From Candidatus Aminicenantota bacterium (GTDB taxonomy: Bacteria > Acidobacteriota > Aminicenantia > S016-38): 38,268 bases of DNA. The stretch is from assembly GCA_026991555.1 (NCBI GenBank), contig JALXBI010000106.1, positions 1 to 38,268 of the forward strand. The letters run 5' to 3'. The notes beneath the pieces were generated by a model that saw only the letters and a list, made by a program, of their open reading frames with translations, had not been told where the DNA came from and ran no database searches. The translations under genes were made by a program, and so were the position numbers. Of the stretch, positions 1,767 to 36,303 are shown piece after piece (position 1 is the first letter of the stretch; each line of letters begins with the position of its first letter).

Positions 1767-2174
1767 ATGAGAAAATTGATTATTCTAATTCTTTTTCTGG
1801 GGGTTGCTATGGCAAAAATCACCATTGAGGATTCCCATTATTCCACCGTAGCCTACATTGAGGATGACGGAGAGGTGACGGATTCCCACTATTCCACCAT
1901 GGGATACATCAGAGAAGGAAGGGTGGAGGATTCCCATTATCAGACCCTGGGCTATATCAGGGAGGATAGTATAGAAAATTCCCATTACTCCACCATAGCA
2001 TACCTGAAGGACGGGGAAATACTGGATTCCCATTATTCCCTGCTCTACATAATAAGGGAAGACGGAACAATAGAGGACTCCCACTACCAGACTGTAGGCT
2101 ACGCCAGGGGTTATACCCCGGAGGATTTCCCGAAAATCGCTGCCTTTCTTCTCTTCTTCCGCCCCCTGCGCTGA
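1767..2174 (+). CDS. secreted six-fold 'SHY' repeat protein, function unknown
   Basis: An exported protein of about 135 aa. It begins with a signal peptide (MRKLIILILFLGVAMA) and then has six tandem units of 16-17 residues starting with DSHYSTVAYI, DSHYSTMGYI, DSHYQTLGYI, NSHYSTIAYL, DSHYSLLYII and DSHYQTVGYA, each followed by an acidic/Gly turn. Units start near bases 1830, 1881, 1929, 1977, 2025 and 2076. Alternating small/aromatic/hydrophobic residues and regular turns suggest a beta-solenoid or closed beta-repeat domain (inference). The ATG at 1767 is chosen over the GTG at 1761 because it starts the signal peptide cleanly; there is no Shine-Dalgarno, but a TGATATTAT -10-like box lies just upstream, compatible with a leaderless mRNA. 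No family was recognised with certainty. Confidence 0.75.
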   Translation: MRKLIILILFLGVAMAKITIEDSHYSTVAYIEDDGEVTDSHYSTMGYIREGRVEDSHYQTLGYIREDSIENSHYSTIAYLKDGEILDSHYSLLYIIREDGTIEDSHYQTVGYARGYTPEDFPKIAAFLLFFRPLR

Positions 2175-2357: not shown

Positions 2358-2957
2358 TCAACGGCAATGGCTCAGGCATAATCCTATCTTCGCTCCAAAG
2401 AAATTGGTCGCAAAAGCCTCTGTGCTAAAATCACTTAAGATAAAACGGGCTAAAATTTCAAAACTCACTCTATGATGTCCTCCCATCTCCATCCCCAACC
2501 CAATGCCTGCCTGGGGTCCTATGCCAAACCTTTCTTCCTTCTCCCGTCCCCATGGATAATCGTATGTGGCATAAAAATTCACAAAAGCAAGGCCAAGGTA
2601 ACCTCTCCCATAGAACCTAAGCCCCTTTGTTCTAAAATATCTCTTTCGGGAATATGTGAGAAAATACTCGTTTATGTCCTCATCGTAACCCCACTCAAGA
2701 TTCTCCCATTCCAGCCTCTTAATTTTAAAAGGCCTCGCTTCAATCTCCAGGCTCCAGGATTCCTTTTCTGAAATCTTCTTTTCAAAACCCAGCGAAAACA
2801 AAGGCCTGGGGGATGTGTCGGAAACGCAAATGGAGTAATCCCTCCTACAACTTACCTCCAGAGCTGAACCCACCGAACCCACAAGGAATGCCCCCTTAGG
2901 CAGGCCAGTGGCTGATAAAAGCATTGGCCCTAAAAAAAGGAAAATTATCTTTCTCAT
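2358..2957 (-). CDS. predicted outer-membrane beta-barrel protein
   Basis: A 199-aa protein with a signal peptide (MRKIIFLFLGPMLLSATG) followed by alternating amphipathic strands rich in Tyr, Phe and Gly, such as LRFYGRGYLGLAFVNFYA and FGIGPQAGIGLGMEM. This pattern fits a small barrel of about eight strands. A GGAGGAG ribosome site precedes the ATG. Two Cys (CRRDYSIC) near residue 40 could form a short disulfide loop after export, and the protein ends LCLSHCR rather than with the usual terminal Phe. It is the second gene of a minus-strand pair with the Cys-containing peptide gene at 3088-3279. Barrel assignment is from sequence pattern only; no named family was recognised. Confidence 0.7.
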   Translation of the reverse strand: MRKIIFLFLGPMLLSATGLPKGAFLVGSVGSALEVSCRRDYSICVSDTSPRPLFSLGFEKKISEKESWSLEIEARPFKIKRLEWENLEWGYDEDINEYFLTYSRKRYFRTKGLRFYGRGYLGLAFVNFYATYDYPWGREKEERFGIGPQAGIGLGMEMGGHHRVSFEILARFILSDFSTEAFATNFFGAKIGLCLSHCR

Positions 2958-3087: not shown

Positions 3088-3279
3088 TTAAAATCTTTCC
3101 CTCGCTCTTACCCTAACTCTTTGAGCCAAAAACGAACACAGGTCATCGGCCTGATAGCCGGCGTTCCTACAGGCCTGACACGCCTGGGAATTGCAAGGAG
3201 CCGTGGCTGAAAGCGAACCAAGGAAAGAAAGGGATAAAATCCCGTAGAGAGCCAGCGCCAAAACCTCTCTCTTTCCCAT
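3088..3279 (-). CDS. small secreted cysteine-containing peptide
   Basis: A 63-aa ORF with a strong ribosome site (GAGGAGGGG) before its ATG and a signal-peptide-like start (Lys-Arg followed by LALALYGILSLSFLGSLSATA). The predicted mature part is about 38 residues and begins with a Cys cluster, CNSQACQACRNAGYQADDLC, followed by a basic tail (RVRVRARERF). Four Cys in a CX4CX2CX9C arrangement could make two disulfides or bind a metal after export. A promoter-like pair lies upstream at 3301-3328. No family was recognised. A competing frame at 3108-3320 lacks these features and is taken as a shadow. Confidence 0.6.
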   Translation of the reverse strand: MGKREVLALALYGILSLSFLGSLSATAPCNSQACQACRNAGYQADDLCSFLAQRVRVRARERF

Positions 3280-3328: not shown

Positions 3329-3356
3329 GGGTTCCATTCTAAGGGGAGATTTTTCC

Positions 3357-3408
3357 AATTTTTAGGGTCTGTCCCTTTTTTCAATTTTTAGGGTCTGTCC
3401 CTTTTTTC
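3357..3408. repeat. tandem pair of 26-bp repeats
   Basis: Two perfect 26-bp copies (3357-3382, 3383-3408) of a unit containing AGGGTCTGTCCC between T-runs. The core is the reverse complement of the GGGACAGACCC cores at 1.6 kb. They lie in the divergent gap between the Cys-peptide gene and the 3490 barrel gene. Confidence 0.85.
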
Positions 3409-6276: not shown

Positions 6277-6507
6277 ATGAAATTAAAAGAAAGAAATTCG
6301 GAAATTTTCTGGCTTGCTTTTAAGGGCCTTTCCAGGGATGAGCAGAGGAAGGTAATTGAGCGGCTTTTAGCAGACAGGGATTTTATGGAGGAATTAAAGG
6401 CCATAGCGCTTATAGAACTTCGCAGAGAGGAGCCTTCAAGACCAATTGAGTTCACAGAGGGAAAGCCTACAGAAAGAAATAAAAATAACGCCTCGTTTCC
6501 GTATTAA
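6277..6507 (+). pseudogene. 5' part of an interrupted small antitoxin-like gene
   Basis: The ORF codes for 76 aa and has a GGAAGGAG ribosome site. Residues 1-54 (MKLKERNSEIFWLAFKGLS ... LIELRREEPS) look like a small helical protein whose ELRREEPSR-EEYLRE type ending resembles short antitoxin-like proteins of thermophiles (inference). After base 6440 it diverges into a tail (PIEFTEGKPTERNKNNASFPY) unlike the other copy. Bases 6345-6440 are identical to 8617-8712, and the copy at 8617 continues into the expected TVEEYLREVV ending. Joining 6277-6440 to 8713-8767 gives an intact 72-aa protein in one frame, so this is best read as the 5' portion of a gene split by the intervening segment. It may still be expressed. 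Confidence 0.65.
6345..6440 (+). repeat. 96-bp direct repeat, left copy
   Basis: Bases 6345-6440 are identical to 8617-8712, 2272 bp away in the same orientation. They lie in the same reading frame of the split antitoxin-like ORF. Flanking bases differ on both sides. Confidence 0.95.
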
Positions 6508-7890: not shown

Positions 7891-8097
7891 TCACAGTTCC
7901 TCTTCGCTAATCCCCGCTATTTTCAAGAAATATTTGAGAAGCCCTCTTTTAAGAGGTTTGTTTCCGTGAACTGGAACGGAGATTTTTATACTGGTGCCCT
8001 TCTTGCCATAAATGTGATGGCTTCCTTTTATTCTCTCAAGCTCCCATCCCTTTTTTCTCAATATTTTCCCGAATTCTTTACCGGAAATCTGCTTCAT
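7891..8097 (-). CDS. hicA: HicA-family mRNA interferase toxin
   Basis: A 68-aa protein of the HicA/YcfA family, a small dsRNA-binding-like fold that cleaves mRNA when free of its antitoxin. The family features are present: ISGKEFGKILRKKGWELERIKGSHHIY with the catalytic His in GSHH, then KISVPVHGNKPLKRGLLKYFLK. Full length for the family. Its ATG overlaps the TGA of hicB by four bases (8094-8097), so translation is coupled and the antitoxin gene comes first, an arrangement found in many HicBA loci. No truncation is seen, so the toxin is probably functional. Confidence 0.93.
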   Translation of the reverse strand: MKQISGKEFGKILRKKGWELERIKGSHHIYGKKGTSIKISVPVHGNKPLKRGLLKYFLKIAGISEEEL

Positions 8098-8303
8098 ACA
8101 GCTATTTCTATTATTTTGGCTTCTTTAGGGAGAACTTTATCCTGAGACTCTGCCCTGGCTTCCAGGTATCCTTCTATCGCTTCATAGAGATTCTTCAAGA
8201 GGTCTTCAAAGGTTTCACCCTGAGTGGCACACCCCGGAAGAGCAGGGACTTCTGCCCAATACCCTCCTTCTTCCGCTTTGTGCACTATTACTTTTATTTT
8301 CAT
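8094..8303 (-). CDS. hicB: HicB-family antitoxin
   Basis: A 69-aa HicB antitoxin: KIKVIVHKAEEGGYWAEVPALPGC and then TQGETFEDLLKNLYEAIEGYLEA, the partial RNase-H-like fold that binds and neutralises HicA. It is the short form without a C-terminal DNA-binding domain, so autoregulation through its own HTH or ribbon-helix-helix is not evident. AAGGAGGG lies just before the ATG. The operon is preceded by a TGTTATAAT extended -10 element. The pair lies inside the repeat-bracketed segment and could help keep it in the genome (inference). Confidence 0.93.
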   Translation of the reverse strand: MKIKVIVHKAEEGGYWAEVPALPGCATQGETFEDLLKNLYEAIEGYLEARAESQDKVLPKEAKIIEIAV

Positions 8304-8335: not shown

Positions 8336-8616
8336 TTCTTATTAGAGCATTTTGGGGATTCTTCTCGGGGAGTTTTTTATAATCTGATTCAGTTTTTACC
8401 CTGTTCTTTCCTTTGCGGAGGATTGGGAAGGATCCTCTTCCCCATTGAAAGAAAGTTAAACTTCTCACATTTTTGTGGATTTCCCTGTGGTCGAATTTCC
8501 AGGTTTCTTCTTGTTTTCTCCTTTCCCTGCACTGGGATTGTGCAGTTTAACGGGGTCCATAAAAAGGGTCTGTCCCCAATTTGGGTCCATAAAAAGGGTC
8601 TGTCCCCAATTTGGCT
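8336..8616. other. non-coding stretch with hairpins and repeats
   Basis: No convincing gene lies between hicB and the right copy of the 96-bp repeat. It contains the inverted repeats GGGAAG-GATCCT-CTTCCC (8425-8442) and CTGCAC-TGGGATT-GTGCAG (8527-8545), then two tandem 30-bp repeats ending four bases before the 96-bp copy. An ORF reading through from 8423 is judged an artefact of the repeats. Confidence 0.6.
8553..8612 (+). repeat. tandem pair of 30-bp repeats
   Basis: Two perfect 30-bp copies (8553-8582, 8583-8612). Each unit starts GGGTCCATAAAAAGGG and ends TCTGTCCCCAATTT, and contains the GGGTCTGTCCC core of the dispersed repeat family. They abut the right 96-bp copy, marking a likely rearrangement joint. 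Confidence 0.9.
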
Positions 8617-8712
8617 GAGGAAGGTAATTGAGCGGCTTTTAGCAGACAGGGATTTTATGGAGGAATTAAAGGCCATAGCGCTTATAGAACTTCGCAGAGA
8701 GGAGCCTTCAAG
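8617..8712 (+). repeat. 96-bp direct repeat, right copy
   Basis: Identical over all 96 bases to 6345-6440, same orientation. The left boundary lies four bases after the tandem 30-bp repeats. Confidence 0.95.
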
Positions 8713-8767
8713 GACGGTTGAGGAGTATCTAAGGGAAGTTGTTTCTGATATTAACACTGCTTGTTGA
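8617..8767 (+). pseudogene. 3' part of the interrupted small antitoxin-like gene
   Basis: This fragment encodes RKVIERLLADRDFMEEL, continues as in the left copy, and then has the ending SRTVEEYLREVVSDINTAC before TGA. It lacks a start codon of its own; the 5' part is at 6277-6440. The frame matches the left copy exactly. The -35 box of the next operon (8764-8769) overlaps its stop codon. Confidence 0.65.
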
Positions 8768-31128: not shown

Positions 31129-34100
31129 TCGCTCGCTCCAGAGCCCGGAGTTTTTTCTCTACTTCAAAAGGAGAAGGAGCCACTGGTATAATCAGGCCTT
31201 CTGGGGTGAATTTCCCCCTTTCTTCCTGGAGAAATCTGTATAGTTTTTCCACAGCAGGGGGCTCGCTAAATTTGATGAAGAGCTCCTTTCCCCTCCTTTC
31301 AAGAAGGGAGATTCCCATTTCCGCACAAAGGGCGGAAATTCTTCCCACCGAAAATACCCCCTCTGCCTCAGAGGGAATGCTTCCGTATTTGTCCTGAATT
31401 TCCCGGCGTATTCTGATGATCTGCTCCTCATCCTGGGCCGAGGTTATTTCCCTGTAATAATTAACCCTTTCTAACGGGTCAGGCATATACCAGGAAGGAA
31501 ACCTTACGCTGAGGCCTAAGTTGATTTCTGCCCTGGGCTTTCTCCCGGATAGCTTAGCAATTTCCTCCTCTAAGAGTTTCAGGTAATAATCAAAGCCCAG
31601 CTCCGCGATGTGGCCGTGCTGGGCTGTTCCGAAAAGGGTTCCCCCTCCTCTTATGTTAAGGTCCGCCATGGAAAGGGCGAAGCCAGAGCCAAGGCTGGCG
31701 TGCTCCCTTATGGCCCTTAGCCTTTCTGCGGCCTTTCCCTTGAGATTTTTCTCGTTTACGAAGAAATAAGCATAGGCTTTCCTGCTGGAGCGACCCACCC
31801 TTCCCCTTAACTGATGGAGCTGAGCCAGTCCTAAGTTCTCAGCCCTCAGGACTATCAGGGTGTTTACATTGGGAATGTCTATGCCGTTTTCAATGATGGT
31901 TGTTGTAAGCAGTATGGGGTATTCCCCTTCCATGAATTCTATTATCCCTTTTTCCACGGCTGATGGTCTCATCCTACCGTGCAGAACCAGAATGGGAAGG
32001 TGGGGGTATCTCTGGCGGAGAAATTCCTCCCAGAAGGGAAGCTCCTCAATTCTGTTCATGACTATGTAAACCTGTCCTTCCCTTTCCAGCTCGTGGTCTA
32101 TTGCCTGGAAAAAGACCTCCTTCCTGAAGGGAAGAACGAAGGTTTCCACGCTTTGCCTCCCCCGGGGAGGGGTCTGAATCAGGGAGAGGTCCCAGACCGA
32201 GAAAAGGGCCAGGCTGAGGGTCCTGGGAATTGGTGTGGCGGTGAGGGTCAGGGAGTGGACATCCTTCTTCATTTCCCTTAATTTTTCCTTGTGCTTTACC
32301 CCGAATCTCTGCTCCTCGTCTATTATTAAAAGGCCCAGTCTCTTAAAACCCACATCCTCTCCTAAGAGCCTGTGGGTTCCTATGACTATGTCTATTTTTC
32401 CTGAGGAAAGTTCCTCTATGACCCTTTTCTCCTCAGCCTTGGTTACCATCCTGGACAGCATGGCTATTTCCACGGGATATCTCCTGAACCTTTCCCTGAA
32501 GGTTCTGTAGTGTTGCAGGGCCAGCACAGTGGTGGGGGCAAGAAGAGCTACCTGTTTGCCGTTAAGCACTGCCATAAAGGCTGCCCTCATGGCTATCTCT
32601 GTTTTTCCGAACCCTACATCCCCTACTATTAGCCTGTCCATGGGTGCCTCCCCCATGAGGTCCTCCTTAACTTCCTGCCAGGCCTTAGACTGGTCAGGGG
32701 TTTCCTCATAGGGGAAATCGGAGATGAAATCATCAAGCATTGGGTCTTCCCTGAAGGAGAATCCGCTTCTGGATTTTCTCTCGGCGTAAAGCCTTACCAT
32801 GGATTCCACCAGTTCCTGTATTTTCCTCCTTACCCTTGCTTTCAATTTTCCCCACCTGGGGGAGGAAAGCCTGTCCAGTTTGACCTCCATCCCCTCGGGG
32901 AGGTTGTAGGGATGGAGTTTAAAGGAGGCCTCCACAGGAATGTAAAGTTTTTCTCCGCCTGCATATTCCACTTCCAGGAAATCCCCCTCCAGCTCGCCTT
33001 CGTATGAAACCAGACCACGGAAAATACCTATACCGTAATCCTCGTGAACCACCGGAGCCCCGGCCTCAAGGTTGAAAATGGCTTTTCTAATCCTCCGGAT
33101 TTTCTCCGCTGGTCTTTCCCTGTGTCCTGGAACATTTTCCTCTCCCAGAACCAGGAGATTTCTCAGGTGAAATCCCCTGCGGAGTTTGACCTGAGATTTT
33201 TCGCCGTAGGAGGGCCCGGGAAAATCGGTGGCCATAAGGATTTTCTTCCCTGCCCTCCTTTCGGCTTCCAGCCATTTCCTCCAGGCCTCCACGCTTCCCT
33301 TAGCCCTGGGAAGGAGGGCAAAATCCTCCACATCCCCTTCCTCGCTGCAGAATTCTAAGGCAGGAGATTGGGGAAGGGGAATCAGGGTTTCAGGGTCAGG
33401 ATAGGGAAGGGAGGAATTTTGAGCCCTTTCCTTCTCCTCCTGCAGATACTCAATTATCTGGCCTCTGGCGTAAATTCCAATTTCAAATCCTGAAAAAACC
33501 TCAGGGTATCTTTTCGAATATGCAGAGAGCAGGGCTGGGATTTCTCCGGCTTCCACCGAAAACCCATCCCCAAGCCTTTCCTTCACTTCCTCGGAAGTGA
33601 CTTCCCTGTAGGGACCCACCACAGCCTCCTTTAGCTCCTGGACGGAAAGCTGGGAGGAGGGTTCAAAACTCCTTATGGAAATTATCTCTTGCCCGGAAAA
33701 TTCTATCCTTATGGGAAGGGTTTCCCAGCCCGAGTAAAAGTCAATAATCCCGCCCCTTACGCTGTATTCCCCAATTTCCTTTGCGAAATCCACCTGGCGA
33801 TACTCTAAATTCTCCAAGTGCTCAATGAGGAGCTCCTGGTCCATCTCCTCGCCTTTATGAAGAATAACGGTTTTCAGAAAGACCTGTTTGGGCTCAGGAA
33901 GGTAAAAAAGGGAGGCTGCAGGGGCTACCACCAGTTCCTCCAGACCCTGGTGAAGTCTCCACATTAACTTCATCTTTGCTGCCACGGCCCTTTTAGAGCT
34001 GGGAAGCGGGGAGAAGTATTCCTCCTTGGGGGGAGGAATGAAGGAAGCCCTTTTTCCCGCAAAGAGGGCATATTCCCCTTCAAAGGGAAAATCGTTGGGC

Positions 34101-34198: not shown

Positions 34199-34996
34199 TT
34201 AAACTTCCAGTTCCAGCCCCTCCTTAGCCGCAAGGGCTTGCGGGAAAATCTCCTGGGCCCTTTTCTCCTGCTGATCCACTACTTCGTCCCTGTGGAAGGG
34301 GTCAAAGTGGAAAAGGAGGAGTTTCCCTGCTCCGCTATCCCTGGCGACCTCGGCAGCCATGATTTCAGTGCTGTGTCCGTATCCCCTTTTTTCCTCGTAT
34401 TCTTCAGGGGTGTATTGGGCATCGTGAACGAGGAGGTCCACTCCCTTGAAGAACTCCACTACTTTTTCCCTATCGTCCCCCAATTCGTAATCTGTGGCTA
34501 TTCCCACGCTCTTTCCCTGATATTCTATTCTGTAGAGTATTATCCCGTCCAAGGGGTGGTTCTTGGAATAAAGGGTGCGAATTCTGAAATCCCCTTCAGT
34601 GAGCTCTTCCTTTAAAGCGAGAATCTGGGTTTCCAGCATTTTTCGCGATACCTTAAAGGGAAGAAGCCTGGGATTTGAAAGCAGGTCCAGGGCATCGTTC
34701 ATGGAAAATTTCCCGAAGTCAGGCCCGTACATTTTCCTGCGATAACCCTCGGTGTAGAGGAGGAAGGCAAAGGGAAGGCCCAGAATATGATCTAAGTGAT
34801 AATGGGTGAAAAGGAATACCACATTTTCCCTGAAATTTTCCCGCTCTTCCAGGTTAGTAATACCCGTTCCCGCATCAATGATGAGGGAGGTATCCCCGGA
34901 ATTTATCAATATTGCAGTGGTATTTCCTCCGTATTTTCGGAAGTTCTTTCCGCTTACCGGACAGCTACCCCTTACTCCTAAAAACCTTATCCTCAT
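34199..34996 (-). CDS. MBL-fold metallo-hydrolase
   Basis: A 265-aa metallo-beta-lactamase-fold enzyme. The metal site is FTHYHLDHILG (HXHXDH); later metal-site residues lie in ATDYELGDD, VHDAQYTPEEY and GHSTEIMAAEVA. The start [16 protein letters not shown] and SLIIDAGTGITNLEE match a family of cytoplasmic MBL hydrolases related to RNase Z-like and phosphodiesterase-like proteins; substrate unknown. Its ATG shares one base with the thiC stop (TGATG) and its stop abuts mfd, so the three genes form one minus-strand operon. Confidence 0.88.
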   Translation of the reverse strand: MRIRFLGVRGSCPVSGKNFRKYGGNTTAILINSGDTSLIIDAGTGITNLEERENFRENVVFLFTHYHLDHILGLPFAFLLYTEGYRRKMYGPDFGKFSMNDALDLLSNPRLLPFKVSRKMLETQILALKEELTEGDFRIRTLYSKNHPLDGIILYRIEYQGKSVGIATDYELGDDREKVVEFFKGVDLLVHDAQYTPEEYEEKRGYGHSTEIMAAEVARDSGAGKLLLFHFDPFHRDEVVDQQEKRAQEIFPQALAAKEGLELEV

Positions 34997-36303
34997 CAGA
35001 GCTGAGCAGTGTATTTGTCCCTTTTAATTCCCAGATAAAGGTCCACGATCTTAAGGGCGCAGTAGTCCCCGCACATGGAACAGGCATCGGTTTTGGTGTT
35101 TCTCTTTGACCTGATTAGGTCAAATTTCTCCTGATCAATAGCCAGCCTCCTCTGGGCGTCCCAGTCCAGTGCCCTCCTTGCCTTTGACATTTCCAGATCC
35201 CATTCCCAGGCCCCTTTTACTCCCTTGCACAGGTCAGCAGCATGGGCGGCTATCCTGGCTGCTATTACCCCCTCCTTTACTGCTTCCTTATCAGGTAATC
35301 CCAGATGCTCTGCAGGGGTTACATAACAGAGGAAATCAGCCCCTGCAGCTGCCGCTATGGCTCCACCTATGGCGGAGGTTATGTGGTCATATCCAGGGGC
35401 AATGTCGGTCACTAAAGGCCCCAGAACATAAAAGGGGGCCCCGTAGCAAAGCCTTTTCTGAAGTTTAATGTTCATTTCTATCTGGTCCATGGGAACATGT
35501 CCAGGACCCTCCACCATGGCCTGAACTCCAGCTTCCCGTGCTCTTTTTACCAATTCCCCGAGAACCATGAGCTCGTTTAGCTGGGCAGCGTCGGTGGCAT
35601 CGGCAATGGCCCCTGGCCGCAAACCGTCGCCTAAGCTCAGGGTCATGTCATATTTCTTTGCAATCTCAAGCAACCTATCAAATTCAGTGTAAAGGGGGTT
35701 TTCCTTTTCGTTGTGGAGCATCCACCCGGCAAGGAAAGCTCCTCCCCTGGAGACTATGTCCATTACCCGTTCCTTTCTGCGAATTTTCTCTAAGCCGGAC
35801 AGGGTCAGGCCTGCGTGGACGGTTATGAAGTCCACCCCATCCTTTCCGTGCATCTCAATGACCTCAAAGAGGTCGTCGGGATGCATTTCCACGATGGAGC
35901 CTCTTCTGGATATCCCCACGATGGCAGCCTGATATATGGGGACGGTTCCTACTGGCCTCCAGGAGGCCTCGATTATTTTTTTGCGATTCCGATTGAGATT
36001 CCCACCGGTGGAAAGGTCCATCACAGTATCCGCACCAGCCTCTAAGGCTATTTTCAGTTTCTCCAGTTCGGACTCTAAACGGGGAAAGTCCATGGATGTT
36101 CCTATGTTGGCATTAACTTTGGTTCTCAGGCCTTTTCCTATTCCTATGGGTTTTAAATTTTTATGGTTCGGGTTGGCCGGGATTACTACAGTCCCTTCAG
36201 CCACTCTCTCCGCCAGGGTCTCTGCATCTATTCCCTCTTCCTCAGCTATTTTCTTCATTTCAGGGGTGATTTCCCCTTTTCTGGCTCTTTCCATTTGGGT
36301 CAT
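34996..36303 (-). CDS. thiC: phosphomethylpyrimidine synthase ThiC
   Basis: A 435-aa radical SAM enzyme that rearranges 5-aminoimidazole ribotide to HMP-P in thiamine synthesis. It is the short form without the N-terminal extension of E. coli ThiC. Motifs: [28 protein letters not shown]-type [41 protein letters not shown] and the C-terminal cluster [11 protein letters not shown] (Cys408, 411, 415). TGGAGGTGAAAA is its ribosome site. Only 71 bases separate it from the divergent peptidase gene, with no TPP riboswitch visible, so its control is by another means, possibly the palindrome at 36341-36359. Confidence 0.95.

Follow-up and report, generated by a model that had tools for sequence, protein, structure and literature searches.

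A beta-flower protein from a Candidatus Aminicenantes bacterium whose hairpin tips seem to change as one ring

Overview

The 38,268-nucleotide stretch of DNA analysed here (the window) carries a gene for an exported member of the PF21785 beta-flower family, from a Candidatus Aminicenantes bacterium. The beta-flowers are a known family of bacterial barrels that is functionally uncharacterised, and what is new here is the coordinated change of six tips: to judge from aligned relatives, the residues at the ends of the six hairpins seem to change in concert during evolution, as a single ring, and we think it reasonably probable that they constitute one functional ring. The coordinated tips thereby indicate a possible location of the active surface. 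The whole explanation that we offer, a six-hairpin PF21785 ring whose six tips would form one multivalent contact surface for an envelope ligand, has in our estimation an even chance of being right.

The gene and its repeated motif

As read from the open reading frame, positions 1767-2174 on the forward strand encode 135 amino acids and a stop, starting with the ATG at 1767; a GTG at 1761 provides an alternative in-frame start. A short hydrophobic leader is followed by six units of 16-17 residues, each with the core D/N-S-H-Y, and then by a hydrophobic C-terminal stretch. Read by eye, the hydrophobic N-terminal stretch with AMA/K at its end fits a signal peptide (residues 1-16, positions 1767-1814, +), with cleavage probably falling after AMA. 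A first-pass annotation of this DNA had proposed that the protein is exported, and this reading is consistent with that proposal; an N-terminus of like kind is present in relatives, and the AlphaFold2 model described below has a low-confidence helix at residues 7-10, within the putative signal peptide.

The SHY motifs start at residues 23, 40, 56, 72, 88 and 105, that is at intervals of 17, 16, 16, 16 and 17. When residues 17-135 were shuffled 100,000 times, 93,998 of the shuffled sequences contained no SHY, 5,875 contained one, 124 two and 3 three, which was the maximum, so that none reached six. It is clear that the six motifs are not a chance product of the protein's composition, and both the reading frame with its six S-H-Y units and the regular Asp/Gly turns described in the annotation are confirmed. 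A DNA repeat search recovered six copies of a 41-nt unit with only 61-78% identity to the reference copy, and the motif has therefore been kept far better in the protein than in the DNA.

Family membership and distribution

The protein had been described as without a known family, which is incorrect: residues 19-131 match Pfam PF21785 (Bflower_2) at 94.5 bits, where the cut-off is 38 (E 4.6e-27). The name of the beta-flower fold dates from 2023 and was given on the basis of predicted models, and the accessible text of the paper describes the family, puts it in the Tubby clan CL0395, reports basic residues and Phe at the loop tips and calls [DNEQ]XXG at the hairpin tip semiconserved (Durairaj et al., 2023; PMC10584680). 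Literature searches by Pfam accessions and family names returned, as far as the accessible texts go, only this paper as concerning the family, and in the accessible portions of the beta-flower literature no experimentally assigned function and no solved structure were found.

Within the class to which the window belongs PF21785 is rare, and over the phylum its occurrence is scattered. With the window's own genome counted, matches were obtained in 4 of 60 relatives, 2 of them over the cut-off, and in 30 of the phylum's 396 genomes, 23 of them over the cut-off and most within one family; in the class, 7 of 142 genomes match the profile of alignment A4. Other matches in the Aminicenantia, L117 and L118, come from assemblies that are 70-76% complete and could be contaminants. 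A contig scan with the window protein alone as query gave 48 candidate stretches, none of them confirmed; the contig search with alignment A3 found 221 relatives among 237 candidate stretches, mostly in Bacteroidota, for example Chryseobacterium, and 80 of these relatives were kept as loci, with L033 excluded from the alignments as a false family match. The weak Pfam names other than Bflower that appeared on members of A4 were taken as repeat-driven chance.

Searches beyond Pfam added little. The window protein had no match over the cut-off in NCBIfam, the window had none in Rfam, and PADLOC gave no defence match. Sequence comparison with solved structures yielded no relative (best E 0.2, a 1,4-beta-N-acetylmuramidase), and viral relatives were absent by sequence, with BFVD structure matches all above E 0.001; phages gave a single chance-level match (E 6), and plasmids, with the window protein as query, one weak match (E 3) carrying a beta-flower annotation. 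Horizontal gain from Bacteroidota was considered as a possible origin: the pair of Aminicenantes proteins (the window protein and its congener L035, described below) initially grouped with L036-L038 and L104, which are SHY/AHY/SHH proteins, and this grouping was lost on masking the tips, in a test in which, for two units of L038, the mask was misplaced.

Two arrangements encountered among the relatives are recorded here as side observations. On Piscirickettsia plasmids, 35 records contain beta-flower-like stretches with about 32-34% identity to L036, and among the 24 matches listed (H4-H27) the genes are mostly annotated as serine/threonine-protein kinase, to which a beta-flower domain may be fused on these plasmids. 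In a Bacteroidetes MAG, L043 and its upstream neighbour are tandem beta-flower paralogues with the tips SSY and SSH, 7 bases apart.

Predicted structure

It is very probable that the window protein adopts the beta-flower fold. AlphaFold2 with the 36 sequences of alignment A4 returned a model with a mean pLDDT of 91.3 and a pTM of 0.82; a single-sequence run reached a mean pLDDT of 50.4 only, and the confident model therefore rests on the alignment. Disorder, which the annotation had named as an outcome that would count against its repeat protein, is absent at the first of these values, with the alignment. The model comprises twelve strands in six hairpins over residues 18-114 (positions 1818-2108, +; block pLDDT 95-98 from residue 21 on), the predicted strands being 18-22, 27-31, 36-39, 44-49, 52-55, 60-64, 68-71, 76-81, 84-86, 92-96, 101-104 and 109-114. 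These are followed by a predicted hydrophobic C-terminal helix at residues 118-134 (positions 2118-2168, +), in which the hydrophobic A..FF stretch is conserved among aligned relatives. The helix is proposed to plug the barrel, a role that comes from the accessible account of the family (Durairaj et al., 2023; PMC10584680).

Each SHY is placed by the model in a loop inside a hairpin, which is to say at a hairpin tip. Tip 1 (residues 23-25, positions 1833-1841) lies between strands 18-22 and 27-31, and tips 2 to 6 follow at residues 40-42 (1884-1892), 56-58 (1932-1940), 72-74 (1980-1988), 88-90 (2028-2036) and 105-107 (2079-2087), all on the forward strand. Because the loops of such hairpins in a meander barrel share a rim, the six tips would lie together on one rim, and the order of the strands would place the Asp/Gly turns on the opposite rim. 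A solenoid or ring with His and Tyr on one face, able perhaps to bind metal, a ligand or a partner surface, had been suggested for the repeat; the ring, with its single His/Tyr face, agrees with the prediction, whereas the solenoid, and with it a curlin-like fibre, is rejected on the strength of the predicted twelve short strands with a helix.

Coordinated change of the tip residues

Tip statistics were taken over 79 proteins, namely the window protein and 78 loci (L066 and L098, which are incomplete, were left out), and 77 of the 79 gave six units. At the last tip residue, the Y of SHY in the window protein, pairs of units within a protein were identical at a frequency of 0.883, against 0.44 for the same unit compared between proteins. 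At most other positions this pattern is reversed or level, as it is for the residue two before the last tip residue (0.496 within, 0.615 between), the residue after T (0.276 and 0.61) and the first residue of the unit (0.478 and 0.823). The S/H position beside the last tip residue leans the same way as the tip itself (0.912 within, 0.773 between), and so does the E/Q position (0.967 and 0.887). Among the 462 units the last tip residue is H 260 times, R 162 times, Y 36 times and G 4 times; it is uniform in 56 of the 77 proteins and exclusively H, Y or R in 73, and the Y of the window's SHY is H or R in most relatives.

For the trees and for a reduced set, 26 further rows, nearly all of them Chryseobacterium, were removed by hand; 4 long-branch rows were also removed from the tip-masked tree and the reduced set, and 4 rows with five units by pattern from the reduced set (n=59). 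Uniform tips were present in 46 of these 59 proteins, whereas in 2000 shuffles the mean was 1.7 and no shuffle exceeded 7. On the tip-masked tree, which has few columns, is weakly resolved and includes uniform rings of shared ancestry, the six units taken separately require 13, 13, 11, 14, 13 and 12 changes, 76 in all, and a six-letter state needs 20; control positions on the same tree have ratios mostly of 1.0 to 2.2, with the E/Q position, a second one that changes in concert, as the exception at 3.3 (20 to 6). The uniform rings could be partly inherited from a uniform ancestor. Recent gene conversion, which was also considered as the cause of uniform tips, is unlikely because the tip is encoded by several codons in 50 of 55 uniform rings and because the adjacent positions remain unit-specific.

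Proposed function and alternatives

To our knowledge no ligand, structure or phenotype has been described for the family. One plausible explanation of the coordinated tips is that six beta-hairpins close, as predicted, into a shallow 12-stranded ring round the hydrophobic C-terminal helix, and that the six identical S-H-Y tips then work as a single multivalent contact surface, through which the protein would attach, in the periplasm or at the cell surface, to a repeated and for the most part anionic surface, for example glycan or the headgroups of lipids. Affinity or ligand would be set by the residue at the tip, which is His-Tyr here and His, Arg or Tyr elsewhere. H, R and Y are all able to hydrogen-bond phosphate or sugar, and they suit membrane surfaces; this shared ability would explain the exchange of the three at the tip. 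A lipid-side analogy is offered by the basic and Phe residues of beta-flower loop tips and by the placement in the Tubby clan (Durairaj et al., 2023; PMC10584680). That the rim meets an envelope ligand of this kind, lipid headgroups or glycan, is nonetheless a tentative suggestion, to which we give somewhat less than an even chance. Equally tentative is the proposal that the rim is tuned as a ring, with the six petals switching their tip together, lineage by lineage, to all-His, all-Arg, all-Tyr or, as here, all-His-Tyr. If this proposal is true, the beta-flower would act as a symmetric multivalent receptor with a ligand readable from one residue, and the rim would be a directly testable binding surface for a whole family that is without an assigned function. 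The gene neighbourhoods lend no support to any pathway, since no conserved operon was found: the neighbours of the 80 loci form clusters of at most 15 members.

The tips might instead bind one another. A uniform six-fold rim suits symmetric self-contact, and as an oligomer or scaffold interface the tip rims of two or many rings would pack together into a periplasmic or surface assembly; against this, no sign was found of self-assembly by 1zxu or by Tubby domains, and we regard such an interface as unlikely. The binding of metal or haem, in which the six rim His, with Tyr, would hold zinc, copper, iron or haem, is in our judgement decidedly unlikely, and this estimate covers jointly a ligand held by one ring alone and one held between stacked rings. 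His is present in six of six tips of both Aminicenantes proteins, and H-H or H-Y tips are found in L036, L037, L038 and L104, but at the corresponding tip residue 162 of the 462 units have Arg, all-Arg rings, which are unfit for a conserved metal site, make up 15 of 77, and in the model neighbouring tips belong to different petals, perhaps too far apart. The replacement of His by Arg and Tyr argues against a general metal role throughout the family, and the idea is weaker for the family since metal chemistry is not common to H, R and Y.

Selection and genomic context

The beta-flower gene is under purifying selection and is a real gene. A homologue was found in one of three other genomes of the genus (locus L035 of G003, a Candidatus Aminicenantes bacterium), and over 135 codons the two genes differ by a dN of 0.25 and a dS of 1.49, giving a dN/dS of about 0.16 that is approximate because dS is near saturation. 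All 18 SHY residues are retained in L035, with 5 of their codons changed synonymously, and the conservation of the His positions that the annotation had listed for checking is thus observed. A gene remnant or non-functional reading frame, carried along with the repeats, would fit the isolated position, the lack of a ribosome site and the patchy spread of the gene (2 of 4 genomes of the genus, none of three others of its family), but with this dN/dS and all 18 residues retained it is very improbable.

The surroundings are as the annotation had described them. The sequence 5' of the ATG is TTTTTTGTGAAC, which holds no ribosome site; GGAGG-type sites do precede the genes that start at 50 and 2957 (-). 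Between 1475 and 2357 there is no other plausible gene, and GGGACAGACC-type repeats are present on both flanks. The gene stands alone, with an aldehyde dehydrogenase gene (so we take it to be from its sequence) before it and an unrelated reverse-strand ORF on the other side, and AGGGTCTGTCCC-type repeats flank it on both sides. A DNA repeat search places three REP-like copies upstream within 1585-1678 (1585-1607, 1632-1654 and 1662-1678), and a further one downstream at 2205-2236 has a 13-pair stem followed by T-rich sequence on the reverse strand; more REP-like repeats lie in the window at 3350-3401 and 8553-8614.

Across the genus, repeat numbers track Y1_Tnp transposases. The GGGTCTGTCCC repeat has 109 exact copies in the window's genome (G000), many of them near contig ends; its exact 11-mer occurs there in 57 + 52 copies, against 3 for the reversed control, and in congeners in 34 + 17 copies (G001), 11 + 8 (G003), 1 + 1 (G002) and 0 (G004), while Y1_Tnp transposases number 5 in G000, 3 in G001 and 1 in G003, with none in G002 or G004. 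A RAYT is defined, in the accessible text, as a transposase ORF flanked by two inverted repeats (PMC2817692). One element in G000, away from the beta-flower gene, has a Y1_Tnp ORF at about 34326-35096 (-) of contig C98, between inverted repeats at 34004 (-) and 35116 (+).

In the two congeners the beta-flower gene occupies different loci (window 1767-2174, L035 247-666), with repeats beside both. The G003 gene adjoins what are presumably, from their sequence, a phosphodiesterase-like gene and polA, together with a repeat and a cut transposase-like ORF; this RAYT-like ORF matches, with 61% identity across 38 residues, a Y1_Tnp protein encoded in G000, and has no Pfam match of its own. In G002 and G003 no beta-flower was found within 1.5 kb after the aldehyde dehydrogenase gene, and the phosphodiesterase locus of G000 holds repeats and a transposase-like start, with no beta-flower in the short stretch examined. 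The simplest reading, drawn from two genomes, is movement or rearrangement at repeats.

Other features of the window may be noted in passing. An exported protein encoded at 2358-2957 (-) has no Pfam match; it has two tandem paralogues (46% identity) at 24664-26494 of contig C44 in G000, whereas six related genomes have none. A small exported Cys-rich peptide of 63 aa, preceded by a strong ribosome site and without a Pfam match, is encoded at 3088-3279 (-), and a HicA/HicB toxin-antitoxin pair lies at 7891-8303 (-). The ORFs at 6277-6507 and 8423-8767, which have no Pfam match, have an identical stretch of about 25 residues (LADRDFMEELKAIALIELRREEPSR) in common, which looks like a gene fragment duplicated along with repeats.

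Comparison with known systems

With the RAYT/REP system the window's genome shares GGGTCTGTCCC repeats and Y1_Tnp transposases; the window repeat is not a GTAG-tagged palindrome, unlike many in the accessible part of the reference list (PMC2817692). Among solved structures, alignment against the PDB ranked 1zxu (At5g01750) first, with a Z of 7.8 that lies within the range flagged as possibly a common arrangement (rmsd 4.4, 105 aligned; next rows 5.6 and 4.1), and Foldseek against the PDB returned nothing at E <= 0.001. The accessible text of the beta-flower paper itself shows 1zxu as a scramblase-like structure of the Tubby clan (Durairaj et al., 2023; PMC10584680). The window protein has, as predicted, a barrel with a helix in common with this Tubby C-terminal, or phospholipid scramblase-like, fold, but the two are only 10% identical over the aligned part, the 1zxu chain has 162 residues against 135, and the window protein is exported and bacterial.

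The comparison is closest within the beta-flowers. The unit of PF21784 (Bflower, 4-fold) is related, but the window protein scores 20.1 bits there, below the cut-off of 25. With PF21785 it shares the same units and the predicted hydrophobic C-terminal helix, and 36 of 36 members of alignment A4 match this family. It differs from the published [DNEQ]XXG in its S-H-Y tips, with D/N in six of six and G in none of six, Y standing in its place; the G is missing in most relatives as well. PF21785 is by name, though not as a rule of inclusion, a "5-fold beta-flower protein", whereas the window model has twelve strands, that is six hairpins. A Prevotella protein annotated as "5-fold beta-flower" also has six units, so that the label covers six-unit proteins, for which these cases suggest that it is misleading.
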